A stretch of DNA of 29,253 nucleotides from a virus. The position numbers were made by a program, and so were the translations under genes. The notes under the pieces are model-generated. The model did not search any database. It worked only from the letters and a program-made list of their open reading frames with translations, and was not told where the DNA came from. Positions 4,411 to 9,114 of the stretch are shown here, piece by piece. The stretch spans positions 1 to 29,253 of the IMG/VR virus record IMGVR_UViG_3300005340_000070; one strand, given 5' to 3'. Numbering within the stretch: the first letter of the stretch is position 1; each line of letters starts with the position of its first letter.

Positions 4411-5799
4411 ATGCAACTGTCTGCGCAACAGTTGTCATGTGCCGAAGCCTGTCTCGATACATCGCGGCGTTTGTTCGCGGTGACGGGACAGGCCGGTACT
4501 GGCAAAACAACCCTCATCAAACACATAGCTGAACAACTAGCGGCACAGCACGTCAACTTTGCCGTTGCGGCTCCGACTGGTAAGGCCGCGAAACGCATCC
4601 GTGAAGCTACGGGTCTGCGTGCGATAACCGTACACAAGTTGCTCGAATACGGGCGTCCCGGTGAACGCGACAAGACAACTGGCGAACCCCTCGACATCAC
4701 CACACCGAAGCGTGGACGGTTCAATCCGTTCGATCAGTCCGTGATCCTCATCGATGAGTACTCGATGATCAATCACGAGCTGAACCGCAACATCATTGAC
4801 GCACTACCTCCCAAAGGGCGTCTGATCATGTTTGGTGACCTCGCACAGCTCCCCCCAATTGAGAAGTACGTGATCCAGAACGCCAATGGATCGCCATTCA
4901 AGGAACACTGCTCACGTGTGAACTGCTTCTTCGAACTCACGGAGGTGTTCCGTCAGGCCGAAGGTTCAGACGTGCTCATTGCTGCTACAATGGTACGCAA
5001 AGGCGGGCTTCCACGTCGCGGCAACGACTTCAAGATGATCTTGAGCGACTATCCGGTAGATCGGTTGCGCGAACAGGTCATGGAGAGCCTAGAAGAAGGC
5101 ATCGACTATGCATCCATCGACAACCAAATCCTCACGCCGCTTCGAACGCGTTGGATCGGTACGGGGCCGCTCAATGTCATGCTTCAAGGCTTGCTCAACC
5201 CCGATGGTCGTGATCCTACTTCCCTCATGCGGTATGATTGGGACTCAAAGAACCCTGTCACCATCTCAGTTGGCGACAAAGTTGTCTGCACTGAGAACAC
5301 ATACGACATGCGTAATTATTCAGAGCGTTTTCACCAGTGGGATGCTGATGGACGCCCTGATTTCTCCAGCTTCATACCTACTCCGGAAACCAAGTACATG
5401 CTCAACGGCGAAACGGGCAAGGTTCTGGAGATATATCCAGATGGAGGATTTGAGATTGATTTCGGGGACCGAATTGTCGAGATACCTTCGATGTACGAAG
5501 AGTGGTGGGAGAAGAAAGGCATCATCATCGATCAGTATCCGCAGCGTCAGATCGAACTTGCGTACGCTCTCACCGTCCACAAGGCGCAAGGATCGGAGTA
5601 TCAACACGTCATCTACGTGATCAACAATTCCGTGTTCTACATGCTGTGTCGCGAGAACATGTATACAGCGCTCACTCGCGCACGGAAGCGTTGCACTCTA
5701 ATCACGGATCAACGAGCGCTGACAACCTCTATCCGCGTAACTCAAGAAGTCCTTGATAAGCGGCGGAAGACCGCTCCGAAGGAGAGCTTGATCAAGTGA
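4411..5799 (+). CDS. SF1B DNA helicase, RecD/Dda-like
   Basis: The full set of superfamily 1 helicase motifs is visible in 462 residues: Walker A GQAGTGKTT at 26-34, motif Ia APTGKAAKRI at 54-63, Walker B DEYSM at 115-119, motif III GDLAQLPP at 142-149, motif IV-like LTEVFRQ at 176-182, the UvrD_C_2-type ALTVHKAQGSEY near 387-398, and motif VI YTALTRARKR near 418-427. RecD2 and T4 Dda move 5' to 3' on ssDNA and help start or restart replication forks. The lack of a separate DnaB-type helicase in the window suggests it serves replication, possibly with the polymerase downstream. The ATG at 4411 follows GTGGAGA; a GTG at 4399 would add four residues but overlaps that site. Confidence 0.92.
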   Translation: MQLSAQQLSCAEACLDTSRRLFAVTGQAGTGKTTLIKHIAEQLAAQHVNFAVAAPTGKAAKRIREATGLRAITVHKLLEYGRPGERDKTTGEPLDITTPKRGRFNPFDQSVILIDEYSMINHELNRNIIDALPPKGRLIMFGDLAQLPPIEKYVIQNANGSPFKEHCSRVNCFFELTEVFRQAEGSDVLIAATMVRKGGLPRRGNDFKMILSDYPVDRLREQVMESLEEGIDYASIDNQILTPLRTRWIGTGPLNVMLQGLLNPDGRDPTSLMRYDWDSKNPVTISVGDKVVCTENTYDMRNYSERFHQWDADGRPDFSSFIPTPETKYMLNGETGKVLEIYPDGGFEIDFGDRIVEIPSMYEEWWEKKGIIIDQYPQRQIELAYALTVHKAQGSEYQHVIYVINNSVFYMLCRENMYTALTRARKRCTLITDQRALTTSIRVTQEVLDKRRKTAPKESLIK

Positions 5800-5987
5800 G
5801 TATACGTAAGTGTGAGAAGTGCGGTGGAGCTGCACGTGTGATCGACAGTCGTGAGCGACCTATAGGCTTCTCACGTCGTCGTAAGTGCTCGAACTGTGGG
5901 CACAGGTTCTCCACTGTCGAAGTGCGTACCGATCAGTTCAAGACTATCGCCAAACTATGGCTGTCTCTAAAGGAGGTAATGAAATGA
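5796..5987 (+). CDS. Stand-alone NrdR-type zinc ribbon protein, 63 aa
   Basis: The protein is nearly all zinc ribbon: C6-x2-C9 and C31-x2-C34 flank VIDSR (15-19), RRRKC (27-31) and HRFSTVE (36-42). These are the signature residues of the N-terminal domain of NrdR, the bacterial repressor of ribonucleotide reductase genes. The ATP-cone that makes up the rest of NrdR is absent; only about 20 residues follow the ribbon. The start is GTG, overlapping the helicase stop as GTGA. It sits between the helicase and the dNMP kinase in a nucleotide-supply neighbourhood. It may bind NrdR boxes without nucleotide control, or act as a general DNA- or RNAP-binding factor. Ribbon assignment is strong; role is inferred. 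Confidence 0.8.
   Translation: MSIRKCEKCGGAARVIDSRERPIGFSRRRKCSNCGHRFSTVEVRTDQFKTIAKLWLSLKEVMK
5969..5977 (+). promoter_or_regulatory. Very strong ribosome binding site of the dNMP kinase gene
   Basis: AAAGGAGGT is a near-complete match to the anti-SD sequence, placed 6 nt before the ATG at 5984 and inside the end of the zinc-ribbon gene. It decides the start and suggests a high translation rate compared with neighbours. Confidence 0.7.
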
Positions 5988-6610
5988 AGTATGTAGTCGC
6001 ATTCAACGGTCCTCCGGGATCAGGAAAGGACACAGCAGCCGCGATGGCGTACAGGTGGCTGACTGGTGAAGGGTACAACTGCTACGACTATAAGATGTCG
6101 AAGCCGTTGAAAGTCGCGATCAATGGGTTCTGCCGAGTTGAGAACCCGGAACAGCCACACGAAGAACTCAAGAAGAAGCTCACCCCTTGGTCAGGGCCGG
6201 CGAACGCTGTGACATTCCGGCAAGCATACATCGACTTCTCAGAGAGCTACGCCAAACCTCTGTGGGGCCATGATGTATTCACGAGATGGGCGATTGCGGA
6301 GTTTGAGGACTTCCTACGCGCCAATCAGCAGATTGTTCCGGCGACAGTATTCATCATCTCGGATGCGGGCTTCAAGGACGAGCAAGACAGTCTGATAGAT
6401 TGGGTGACACCAAACAACTATGCCATTGCGCGTATGGTCCGTCCCGGTCACACATTCGCTAATGACAGCCGCTCATACATATACCCGCCACAACGCATCT
6501 ACCAAGAGAACATCTACAACGACGGCGATCTTCGTCTATGTGAAGATCGCGTAATCCGCTTCCTCAAATCAGCCATCAAGGCAGGCCAATGGACACCAGT
6601 ACAGCCCTGA
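5984..6610 (+). CDS. Deoxynucleoside monophosphate kinase
   Basis: This 208-residue protein begins with strand KYVVAFN and P-loop GPPGSGKDT at 9-17. The KD after the loop lysine, the WGHDVFTRWA segment at about 94-103 and the IISDAGFKDE block at about 124-133 are the marks of the phage dNMP kinase family (T4 gp1-like). The enzyme would phosphorylate dNMPs to dNDPs, feeding host-derived nucleotides into phage DNA. The ATG overlaps the previous stop as ATGA and has an excellent ribosome site. The MazG-like enzyme downstream is a second nucleotide-pool gene. Length is a little below T4 gp1 (241). The substrate range, including any modified base, cannot be read from the sequence. Confidence 0.85.
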   Translation: MKYVVAFNGPPGSGKDTAAAMAYRWLTGEGYNCYDYKMSKPLKVAINGFCRVENPEQPHEELKKKLTPWSGPANAVTFRQAYIDFSESYAKPLWGHDVFTRWAIAEFEDFLRANQQIVPATVFIISDAGFKDEQDSLIDWVTPNNYAIARMVRPGHTFANDSRSYIYPPQRIYQENIYNDGDLRLCEDRVIRFLKSAIKAGQWTPVQP

Positions 6611-9114
6611 TCAGTAACCTGTCCACCATGCGCGCTGCATTCACCGAGCGCGCAGTCAACTCCCGTCTTGAGGTCGAGTGTCCGATGGACGGGACTTTCT
6701 TTTCGGACAAGGTAATCATCGCGGAAGCTCCGGGTGAACGCGAGGTGCAGCAGAAGTTGCCTCTAGTTGGTGGATCAGGGTCACTGCTCTGGAACATCAT
6801 GCTCAAGCGCAACAAGCTGTCGCGTAAGGACTTCTACATCACTAACGTCATCAAGCGGCAAGTCTCGCTCGCTGATCGGAAGAAGGGAGTGAACAAACAT
6901 GAGCTTGGTCTTTGGACTGAGTTGCTTCGTTGGGAGCTTGGTCATCTTCCTAACGTGCATTACATTCTCGCGATGGGTAATTACGCACTTGAGGCGCTTA
7001 CAGGCCACACAGGGATCACTAGTTGGCGAGGCAGTGTTGTTAGTGTTGATATTCCTGATTTTATCCGGGGCGGTACTCGCTCTGTTCGTGTTGTTGTATG
7101 TAACAATGCCGCCGCAGCCATCCACGATCCTCGGCTAGAAGTAGTTCTGAACCGCGACATCGCCTGTCTTGGGAGAGTACTCAATGGTTCGCATACGCCG
7201 TACGAAATCTCGACAGAAATATATCCCTCGATACAGCGCATTGATAATTTCCTCGATGACGCAATTCGGTCAGGTGATACAATTGGACATGATATCGAGA
7301 GTATCAGTGGCGAAACTGCATGTTTTGGCTTCGCGGATACACCCACAACAGCGATCTGTATTGCACTGCGTACCCAGACCGATCAAGTCTACTCCATCGA
7401 GGAAGAGCGCCACATTCGGCGTCGGCTACAAAGGTTCTACGATCACCAAGCCGAGAAGCCGCAGCTCCTAGCACAGAACGGCATGTTCGATATGACGTGG
7501 CAGTGGTACAAGGATAAACTACGCATCCCGAGACTACTGCGCGACACCATGCTCGGACATCATACCTTGTATCCCGTCTTGCCACACAACTTGGGCTTCC
7601 TTACCACGCAGTACACCGACAATCCCTATTACAAGGGAGAGAAGGATGAATGGCGTGACGATGGTGACATCGATGACTTCTGGAGGTACAATGGCAAGGA
7701 CAGTGCTAACCTGATCGCCATCGACAATCGAATGGTAGGCGAACTCAAGGATCAGGGACTATGGGACTTCTTCATGAACCACGTCATGCGTCTGCAACCA
7801 CACCTCGTACGTATGTGTGTAGGCGGCTTGAAGATGGACATGAAGATGAAGGAGGAATTGAACCTAACAGTCGGTGAGACAGTCGCCAAACTGCTCATGG
7901 AGTTCCAGCACAAGATCGTTGATACACTCGGTGAGGAGCTGTGGTACAATCCCGCCTCACCGAAGCAGATGTCGGAACTCTACTTCTCGAAACTGAAGCT
8001 CGTCGGTCGCGGAACATCGACTGACAAAGAGAACCGCGATCGGATGTTCAAACATCCACGCACATCGGAGGCTGCGCGTGAAATCATCAACCTCCACAAC
8101 CGATGGGCAGAAGAGAGTAAGTTCTATGGAACCTATGTCAAAGCCGCAGCCGACGAGGATGGTCGTTTTCGCTGTACATACAACCAGACCGGAACTCAAG
8201 AGGCTCCGGGCCGACTATCTAGTAGCCAAACTCTATGGGGTAGCGGCGGCAATCTACAAAACCAGCCTCAGCGAGCGTATCCTATGTACGTTGCTGATGC
8301 TGGTTACGGGTTCGGATACTTTGATCTTAGTCAAGCGGAGGCCCGATACGTGGGATGGGCTGCAAACATCGAGAAGTGGATCGAACAGTTCGAGCGGGCG
8401 CGCCTCGTAGGTGGTTACGACGCGCACCGCGCTCTAGCATCCGATCTCTTCAAGATCCCGTACGACGAGGTTCCGTCCTTCGACCACTACGACAGTTCCA
8501 AGCCCGGTAAGCTCCCGCCGGAAGGGAAACGAGACGGGGACGTTACTATTCGCTACATCGCGAAACGGTGCCGCCATGGACTGAACTATCGAATGGGTCC
8601 GGACCGTCTCGCCACCACAGCGAAACTCTCCCTCATAGTCGCGGACAAGGCTTACAGAGACTATCATCGGCTCACTCCTGAGTTGCGTGTTTGGTGGGCC
8701 TCCCTCGAAACGGAACTCAAGAGGAACGGTTGCCTCTACAACGCGTACGGTCGCCGTTTTATCCTAATGGAGCGCCCAAGTCCAGAGGCTCTTGAAAGTA
8801 TTGTGGCCTTCAAGCCGCAATCTACCATTGGTGATAAGGTGTGCCGCGTCATCTACATGTCGGAGGATCACCCACGCTGGCCTCGTAGGGCGCGGGTTGC
8901 ACTCAACATCCACGATGCGGTGATCTGTCTCGCACCGCTGGTAGACTTGGAGCAGTGCTTGAGTATCCTCAAGTATTACGCCGAGGAACCGCTCATGGTC
9001 GGGGGGCGAGAGTTGATTATCCCGGCCGACTGTAAGATCAGCTACCCCGATGACCAAGGAGTTCACAGATGGTCGCAGCTCAAACCGATCCAAGTCGAAA
9101 GCGTGAGTATGTAA
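6589..9114 (+). CDS. Family A DNA polymerase with N-terminal UDG-like domain
   Basis: Three regions are visible in 841 residues. Residues 1-200 resemble family 4/5 uracil-DNA glycosylases: VIIAEAPGER (42-51), PLVGGSGSLL (58-67), YITNVIKR (83-90), ILAMGN (126-131). A 3'-5' exonuclease follows, with D235-x-E237, D301 (QNGMFD) and Y367-x3-D371. The polymerase part has motif A DLSQAEAR (579-586), motif B R655-x3-K659-x3-H663-x3-Y667, and motif C IHDAV (774-778), where D776 is the catalytic aspartate. This should be the replicative polymerase with proofreading. The UDG-like part lacks the usual HPS/HPA motif (NNAAA at 172-176) and the four Fe-S cysteines, so it is probably a non-catalytic or sensing domain. 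The start overlaps the kinase gene by 22 nt, behind a modest AGGCAGG site. Confidence 0.92.
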   Translation: MDTSTALISNLSTMRAAFTERAVNSRLEVECPMDGTFFSDKVIIAEAPGEREVQQKLPLVGGSGSLLWNIMLKRNKLSRKDFYITNVIKRQVSLADRKKGVNKHELGLWTELLRWELGHLPNVHYILAMGNYALEALTGHTGITSWRGSVVSVDIPDFIRGGTRSVRVVVCNNAAAAIHDPRLEVVLNRDIACLGRVLNGSHTPYEISTEIYPSIQRIDNFLDDAIRSGDTIGHDIESISGETACFGFADTPTTAICIALRTQTDQVYSIEEERHIRRRLQRFYDHQAEKPQLLAQNGMFDMTWQWYKDKLRIPRLLRDTMLGHHTLYPVLPHNLGFLTTQYTDNPYYKGEKDEWRDDGDIDDFWRYNGKDSANLIAIDNRMVGELKDQGLWDFFMNHVMRLQPHLVRMCVGGLKMDMKMKEELNLTVGETVAKLLMEFQHKIVDTLGEELWYNPASPKQMSELYFSKLKLVGRGTSTDKENRDRMFKHPRTSEAAREIINLHNRWAEESKFYGTYVKAAADEDGRFRCTYNQTGTQEAPGRLSSSQTLWGSGGNLQNQPQRAYPMYVADAGYGFGYFDLSQAEARYVGWAANIEKWIEQFERARLVGGYDAHRALASDLFKIPYDEVPSFDHYDSSKPGKLPPEGKRDGDVTIRYIAKRCRHGLNYRMGPDRLATTAKLSLIVADKAYRDYHRLTPELRVWWASLETELKRNGCLYNAYGRRFILMERPSPEALESIVAFKPQSTIGDKVCRVIYMSEDHPRWPRRARVALNIHDAVICLAPLVDLEQCLSILKYYAEEPLMVGGRELIIPADCKISYPDDQGVHRWSQLKPIQVESVSM

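Follow-up and report, generated by a model that had tools for sequence, protein, structure and literature searches.

What does a uracil-DNA glycosylase (UDG) domain do on a viral replicase once its catalytic histidine is gone? The question is raised by IMG/VR virus record IMGVR_UViG_3300005340_000070, whose 29,253 bases (positions 1 to 29,253) form the window analyzed here, and by one open reading frame (ORF) within it, at 6589..9114 on the + strand. The encoded protein of 841 aa joins a UDG-like domain to a 3'-5' exonuclease and a family A DNA polymerase. An earlier note on this DNA, made from the letters alone, had described the glycosylase site as degraded. We find that the group of related domains to which the window belongs separates the cutting residue, which is changed in 23/23 members, from E46, E52, and N86, the residues expected to hold uracil, all of which are kept in 20/23. 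Judged from these sequences, the site looks re-tooled across a lineage rather than simply decaying, with the window gone further than its relatives. This lineage-wide pattern behind the "degraded" site, and not the fusion itself, is what is novel here.

Architecture of the fused protein

The frame at 6589..9114 is uninterrupted, containing no internal stop, and its domain assignments draw on Pfam, PHROGs, and AlphaFold2. Pfam places a UDG domain (PF03167) at residues 39-143 (E 1.7e-12; 48 bits, cut-off 24.3) and a DNA_pol_A domain (PF00476) at residues 429-797 (E 2.5e-23; 83.1 bits, cut-off 34.3), and the PHROGs DNA polymerase family phrog_17 covers residues 43-784 (E 1.4e-75). Searched alone, the domain matches TIGR00758, the NCBIfam model of family 4 UDG, over residues 32-195 (E 6.4e-14), at 52 bits against a curated cut-off of 125.3, which the fused domain of phage ctfzr933 exceeds at 185.6. 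Together with the block means of the AlphaFold2 model, these matches delimit a UDG-derived domain of about residues 30-200 (6676..7188, + strand).

The UDG-derived domain is followed by a 3'-5' exonuclease domain at about residues 205-385 (7201..7743, + strand), assigned by alignment, AlphaFold2, and structure comparison, and by a family A polymerase domain at about residues 390-830 (7756..9078, + strand), assigned by PF00476 and by VIA-align superposition on 1kfd. Six exonuclease residues (D235, E237, N297, D301, Y367, and D371) and six polymerase residues (D579, R655, K659, Y667, H775, and D776) are invariant in eight aligned sequences including the window. Pfam returns no match to the exonuclease family PF01612 in the window protein itself, and matches this family in the relatives L026 and L028. 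With PF00476, motifs A, B, and C, and the exonuclease carboxylates in place, the protein belongs to the family A DNA polymerases with 3'-5' exonuclease, and the claim of the earlier note that a UDG-like domain is fused in-frame to a complete exonuclease-polymerase is borne out. Motif C (residues 775-777, window 8911-8919) reads HDA, likewise in L003; it is HDS in five of the eight aligned sequences and HDD in one.

The AlphaFold2 model of the full-length protein, built with 24 aligned sequences, has a mean pLDDT of 86.5 and a pTM of 0.83, with block means of 84 to 96 across residues 11-200 except at residues 91-100 (61). Its residues 205-832 superpose on the Klenow fragment (1kfd) with a VIA-align Z of 30.3 and an rmsd of 3.6 over 518 aligned residues; hence, the UDG domain directly precedes the 3'-5' exonuclease. 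Searches of this model with Foldseek and VIA-align give polymerases alone among the best 50 rows, so it is on sequence that the UDG relationship of the window domain is based. A viral structure library also returns phage polymerases, the second row aligning over 893 columns at a TM-score of 0.73, a match that does not give the coverage of the UDG part. An assembly chimera is unlikely, because two other IMG/VR contigs (L001 and L002) encode proteins 100% identical to that of the window over 841 residues and L026 is a 71% relative.

The glycosylase site in the window's group and in a neighboring clade

In the family 4 enzyme Tth UDGa, the uracil pocket consists of E41, G42, E47, F54, N80, and H155, as given in the available text of PMC5387724. 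The alignment equates these residues, in the same order, with E46, A47, E52, L59, N86, and N173 of the window. Motif 1 of family 4, GE(A/G)PGxxE, is recognizable as A-E46-A-P-G-E-R-E52, with the leading Gly replaced by Ala; its EAPGERE stretch (residues 46-52; 6724..6744, + strand) holds the equivalents of E41, G42, and E47. The uracil-recognition Asn (Tth N80) is present as N86 (6844..6846, + strand), and L59 (6763..6765, + strand) takes the place of F54. The sequence blocks quoted in the earlier note lie where it had placed them, with AEAPGER at residues 45-51, PLVGGSGSLL at 58-67, and YITNVIKR at 83-90. The loop after N86, which is the region of the motif 3 Asn (N89), has no confident alignment.

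Motif 2 lacks its catalytic His, with N173-A174-A175 (7105..7113, + strand) replacing His155-Pro-Ala; in the NNAAA (residues 172-176) that had been pointed out as the substitute for HPS/HPA, comparison with relatives puts N173 at the His position and A174 at the Pro position. An alignment error, the objection anticipated at the outset, is ruled out by a series of intact and altered fused homologs that are ungapped at the motif: an unaltered motif occurs in some fused homologs (ctfzr933, ctLwi270, which retains HPS, and phiLo), yet the window aligns without a gap there, which identifies a substitution. C31 (6679..6681, + strand) was correctly singled out as the one Cys that can be matched to the four Fe-S ligands; the equivalent of C84 is R90. 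Finally, H179 (7123..7125, + strand) stands at the place of R184 of UdgX, a residue in contact with the DNA backbone that family 4 also conserves, according to the available part of PMC10359453.

To place these residues among relatives, 68 UDG domains were extracted, 57 of which are distinct across the first 230 residues. L033, L052, L088, and L106 are not among the 68, close duplicates such as L036/L037 were retained, and L032, L034, and L035 were omitted from the counts, leaving 23 domains in the window's group and 31 in a neighboring Mel-JY34-type clade, collected by searching with Mel-JY34 and L047. In the window's group, the His site is occupied by Asn in 21 domains, by Ser in one, and by Ala in one, the usual motif being N-P-A. 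The loss of the His motif that the earlier note described is real, and it is not particular to the window; what the window shares with L026 only is the loss of Pro174, which is Ala in these two and Pro in 21/23. E46 and E52 are each retained in 22/23 domains and N86 in 20/23. The F54 site holds Leu in 21 domains, Met in one, and Phe in one. Arg179 is found in 20/23, with His in two (one of them the window) and Lys in one, and a Cys at position 31 in 19/23.

The neighboring clade presents a different picture. His is present in 16 of its 31 domains, and the remaining 15 carry Pro (five), Ser (five), Ala (three), Asn (one), or Thr (one). Domains with His also keep E52 (13/16), N86 (13/16), and the Arg (16/16), whereas those without it have E52 in four, N86 in three, and the Arg in four. 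Read from these alignments, the pocket of the neighboring clade breaks down along with the His, and that of the window's group does not. It is because E46, E52, N86, and the Arg are kept in one group and mostly lost in the His-less members of the other that the site looks re-tooled; "degraded" is apt for the His and the Fe-S ligands and inapt for E46, E52, and N86. This contrast is descriptive, as the 23 rows of the window's group are not independent.

The group is also recovered from the rest of the protein. An unrooted tree, computed by a quick method, comprises 54 exonuclease-polymerase sequences, 41 from the window and other IMG/VR proteins of at least 700 aa and 13 from named phage proteins; shorter rows (such as L050, L055, L060, and L061) lie outside it, and long branches are flagged for several rows. 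All 16 window-group rows in this tree fall on one side of a branch with an SH-aLRT of 100, and the tree requires a minimum of 10 switches between His and other residues. Between the window and L026, dN/dS is 0.11 in the UDG domain and 0.10 in the polymerase, and the corresponding values for L036-L037 are 0.04 and 0.03; the pairs L041-L042, L038-L040, and L034-L035 are unusable because of too few changes or saturated dS. By this measure, the UDG domain is under purifying selection, weaker than that on the polymerase in some pairs.

Possible roles of the domain

The reading that we favor, with moderate confidence, is a module that binds DNA without cutting it any longer and that may or may not read bases. 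The UDG-derived domain would no longer excise bases efficiently and, tethered to the exonuclease-polymerase, would keep template DNA close to the enzyme. Less well supported is the idea that the retained pocket may still take up a flipped uracil or other altered base, upon which the polymerase might pause or back into proofreading instead of copying it, pausing at uracil being speculative. Loss of the His can indeed spare binding, since the H155S mutation of Tth UDGa lowers k2 by more than three orders of magnitude and leaves Km almost unchanged (PMC5387724, available text). A more specific version, in which the pocket, disabled by the change from His to Asn, uses E46, E52, and N86 to hold uracil, inspects the template for this or another deaminated base, and stops the replicase as the pocket of archaeal family B polymerases does, we consider unlikely.

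Several observations weigh against the favored reading. Replacement of F54 by Leu should weaken uracil stacking, and the window itself has additionally lost the Pro (to Ala) and the Arg (to His). Conservation at the key positions is good but not extreme, N86 ranking 47th and N173 34th among 171 domain sites, and it is seen in a single lineage. The dS of the window-L026 pair is saturated (~2.3), and in other pairs constraint is weaker on the UDG domain than on the polymerase, with dN/dS values of 0.18 against 0.07 for L030-L031, 0.24 against 0.16 for L028-L030, and 0.21 against 0.05 for L044-L057. Moreover, the Asn alone is no argument for uracil reading, because the UDG domains fused to DnaE polymerases (described below) and the T5-like domain, which has Asn in pVp-1, lost both the His and the N80 equivalent too.

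A purely structural role, in which the UDG fold docks or stabilizes the exonuclease-polymerase and the pocket residues persist for holding the fold together, is possible, if somewhat doubtful. Across 54 rows from several lineages, the most conserved positions (G130, I143, R147, G148, and D190) lie mainly in the later half of the domain; G130 and D190 are each conserved in 52/54 rows, R147 in 49, G148 in 48, and the Pro at 174 in 48. These core positions are largely retained in actinobacteriophage (Gordonia and Mycobacterium) polymerases without motif 1; the Gordonia, Mycobacterium, and T5-like forms have lost both motif 1 and N80. The N-terminus of the T5-like polymerases (L024 1848-4421; L062-L068) looks like a shortened UDG-type domain according to hhalign (probability 95%, E 2.4e-8, 90 columns). 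UdgX entries are the top Foldseek rows for its model (pLDDT 65), at a weak E of 0.017, and Pfam UDG has no match in any of the six T5-like sequences scanned. In a 2004 study of the T5 polymerase, a short N-terminal deletion reportedly altered polymerase and exonuclease activity mildly. The persistence of a shared core where motif 1 is lost, together with the shortened T5-like form, speaks for a structural role that stays the same while base handling may be gained or lost. Yet E52, N86, and the Arg can disappear from a domain that persists, as in the neighboring clade; the fold therefore does not compel the window's group to retain them.

Quite improbable is a domain that is still a glycosylase with changed chemistry, in which the motif 2 Asn slows excision or alters it, the target being perhaps a different deaminated or modified base. 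The near fixation of Asn at the His site with E46, E52, and N86 mostly kept would suit such an enzyme. An abasic site in the template blocks a polymerase unless repaired, and excision would leave one in the protein's own template. The motif 2 His is missing from UDG families 2 and 6, which act without it (available text of PMC5387724), but motif 1 of the window, EAPG, has no family 2 Asn, the motif 3 region is not alignable, and the Fe-S ligands are absent. Likewise, the Pro is gone in the window and L026, F54 has become Leu, and a family 4 enzyme pays for H155S with the loss in k2 given above. E. coli Mug likewise has an Asn in motif 2. Membership of family 2 (Mug/TDG) was considered separately and rejected, as its motif 1, GINPG in the available part of PMC10359453, is absent and the window has AEAPG in its place.

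Plain decay of a functionless relic on its way to being lost is very improbable: the number of His changes on the tree and the window's own losses of Pro and Arg would fit it, but the domain is under purifying selection in the measurable pairs, is conserved within the group despite a median pairwise identity of 44%, and is represented by exactly one PF03167 match in each of 25/25 relatives' records, a weak point as these records were retrieved via their polymerase.

The non-cutting DNA-binding module that we favor has different implications depending on its base handling. Base reading would endow a family A replicase with a uracil checkpoint; without it, the domain would be an example of an enzyme becoming a structural part of a polymerase.

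Other window genes have PHROG matches to a Sak4-like protein, a single-strand binding protein, a Dda-like helicase, a dNMP kinase, a pyrophosphatase, a portal, and a major head protein, a set that marks the window as phage DNA. Window 5796-5987 encodes a 63-aa protein matching the zinc ribbon found at the NrdR N-terminus (PF22811, E 5.4e-9) and too short for the remainder of NrdR.

A uracil or modified-pyrimidine genome was considered and rejected. In 25 relatives' records (nine from the window's group and 16 from the neighboring clade; IMG/VR records of unstated completeness), dUTPase (PF00692) was found in one and a dCMP deaminase match in one, and ThyX and ThyA were found in 0/25 each; this absence is weak, as PF00692 misses some dUTPase types. 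One record (G004), that of L073, has a dUTPase at G004:C1:30093-30488, and in its UDG domain D, S, and Y replace E46, A47, and N86 (n = 1).

Comparison with other fusions and with known UDGs

A fusion of UDG and polymerase is already known from SPO1 and many other phages. The window shares the SPO1/phiLo-type layout, with the UDG ahead of exonuclease and polymerase in a single polypeptide. Searches by tblastn with the window domain match 51 phage records at E up to 1; with the domain of Lysinibacillus phage LysYB1 they match 52 records at E up to 1e-3, including SPO1 gp31, in agreement with the earlier note's mention of SPO1-type polymerases; and with the ctfzr933 domain they match 106 records at E up to 1e-5. 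Among 60 of these 106 matches listed, 36 are annotated as polymerase (family A or C), four as uracil-DNA glycosylase, and seven as hypothetical, and 13 lie in unannotated records. A pattern scan of genome contigs gave 21 matches, with no relative among them. Phage genome annotations include UDG-polymerase fusions, and the PDB holds one structure (9QHS). A literature search, in which DnaE-UDG fusions were not included, found no paper on what the UDG domain of such fusions does, and the available portions of PMC8307549, PMC2147016, and PMC3950489 contain nothing on them.

The deposited structure corresponds to Thermus phage phiLo (MH673673): the 1142-residue chain of 9QHS matches phiLo residues 34-1175 end to end (2587 bits) and is identical in the alignment part listed. 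Like the window protein, that of phiLo has an N-terminal UDG (PF03167, E 5.3e-21) followed by exonuclease and family A polymerase in a single chain, but at 1175 aa it keeps GEAPG, LTN, HPS, and several Cys, whereas the window reads N-A-A and retains C31 alone of the cluster ligands. In LysYB1, too, the UDG precedes exonuclease and polymerase, and its domain is 48.1% identical to that of SPO1 gp31 (NC_011421), which is annotated as intron-containing. With HPN or HPD kept and the N80 equivalent replaced, by Ser in SPO1 and by Gly in LysYB1, these two domains are the opposite of the window's group.

The ctfzr933 protein retains the Cys ligands, GEAPGxxE, the Phe, the Asn, and HPA; its domain matches 1UI0 at E 8.9e-44. 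This phage PolA with UDG (L011 2842-5256, MW202455), which has both the Cys ligands and the pocket residues of family 4, is predicted to be an active bifunctional enzyme. Since fused forms with an intact motif exist, the fusion probably began with an active glycosylase, several lines losing catalysis afterward, a direction inferred on an unrooted tree.

Two further fusions, in Pseudomonas phage PMBT14 and Serratia phage Serbin (L116 and L117), are encoded by UDG-PolA genes adjoining genes for thymidylate synthase, dCMP or cytidine deaminase, and dUTPase or pyrophosphohydrolase; their UDG domains keep HPA and have Pro at the N80 position. In L050, L054-L056, L061, L084-L087, and L089-L092, the polymerase ORFs stop at ~550-600 aa, with similarity resuming downstream in several, and L009 and L013 are split into UDG-exonuclease and polymerase ORFs. 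An intron, intein, or frameshift is a candidate cause for these interrupted ORFs.

UDG-like domains also occur at the C-terminus of family C (DnaE) polymerases, identified by Pfam and alignment in L113 (1130-4522), L114 (1097-4465), L118 (1058-4465), L119 (1070-4462), L120 (550-4068), and L121 (766-4074). These belong to phages of Pseudomonas, Rhizobium, Stenotrophomonas, and Salmonella (SSU5), and further UDG matches are annotated as DNA polymerase III in Escherichia and Klebsiella phages among 40 listed of 54 records. All six proteins (phiK7B1, nickie, B1VFA, RHph_N1_15, SSU5, and ANB28; phiK7B1 and nickie are near copies, with 95.8% identity in the UDG domain) match DNA_pol3_alpha at E 1e-69 or better. 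The UDG domain exceeds the Pfam cut-off in five, that of SSU5 lying below it (14.9 against 24.3 bits). As in the window's group, the domain sits on a phage polymerase and its His is replaced, by Asn in five and by Ser in one (motif 2 is NPA, NPA, SPG, NPG, NPN, and NPG); in contrast, its place is C-terminal, its polymerase is of family C, and the N80 equivalent is absent in 6/6.

A His-less UDG at the other end of an unrelated polymerase suggests a benefit other than excision, and a shared benefit in replication is worth considering. Because N80 is gone there, the DnaE fusions would favor DNA binding or docking over uracil reading. The family C fusions may be separate in origin from those of family A. 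Were the template-reading version of our proposal true, non-cutting UDGs on family A and, apparently separately, family C replicases would represent repeated inventions of replicase-borne DNA readers.

Among stand-alone enzymes, family 4 UDG offers a close comparison. Both 4zbx (E 2.3e-46) and 1ui0 (Tth UDGa; E 1.5e-44) are recovered with a profile of 18 UDG domains, 15 of them from family A polymerases of the window's type and the rest comprising others and one stand-alone UDG. The window shares with these two the E41, E47, and N80 equivalents, and differs in lacking His155, F54, and the full Fe-S ligand set and in scoring far under the NCBIfam family 4 cut-off. The top single-sequence PDB match of the window domain is UdgX (8iir, E 2.1e-5), a UDG-fold protein that holds on to uracil-DNA, several entries of which are titled "Phage SPO1 DNA polymerase-related protein." UdgX differs in keeping His178, according to the available text of PMC10359453, and in having a KRRIH loop, with its cross-linking His, that the window does not. 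UdgX-like cross-linking was accordingly rejected as a candidate, the window loop being SLADRKKGVNKHEL and the TIGR03914 score 33.8 bits against a cut-off of 189.95.

In archaeal family B polymerases, an N-terminal read-ahead pocket binds template uracil without cutting it. If uracil reading holds for the window's group, its UDG-derived domain would likewise provide a replicase with an N-terminal pocket that holds template uracil without excising it. The fold and the polymerase family are unrelated, and the comparison is hence one of mechanism, not of descent.

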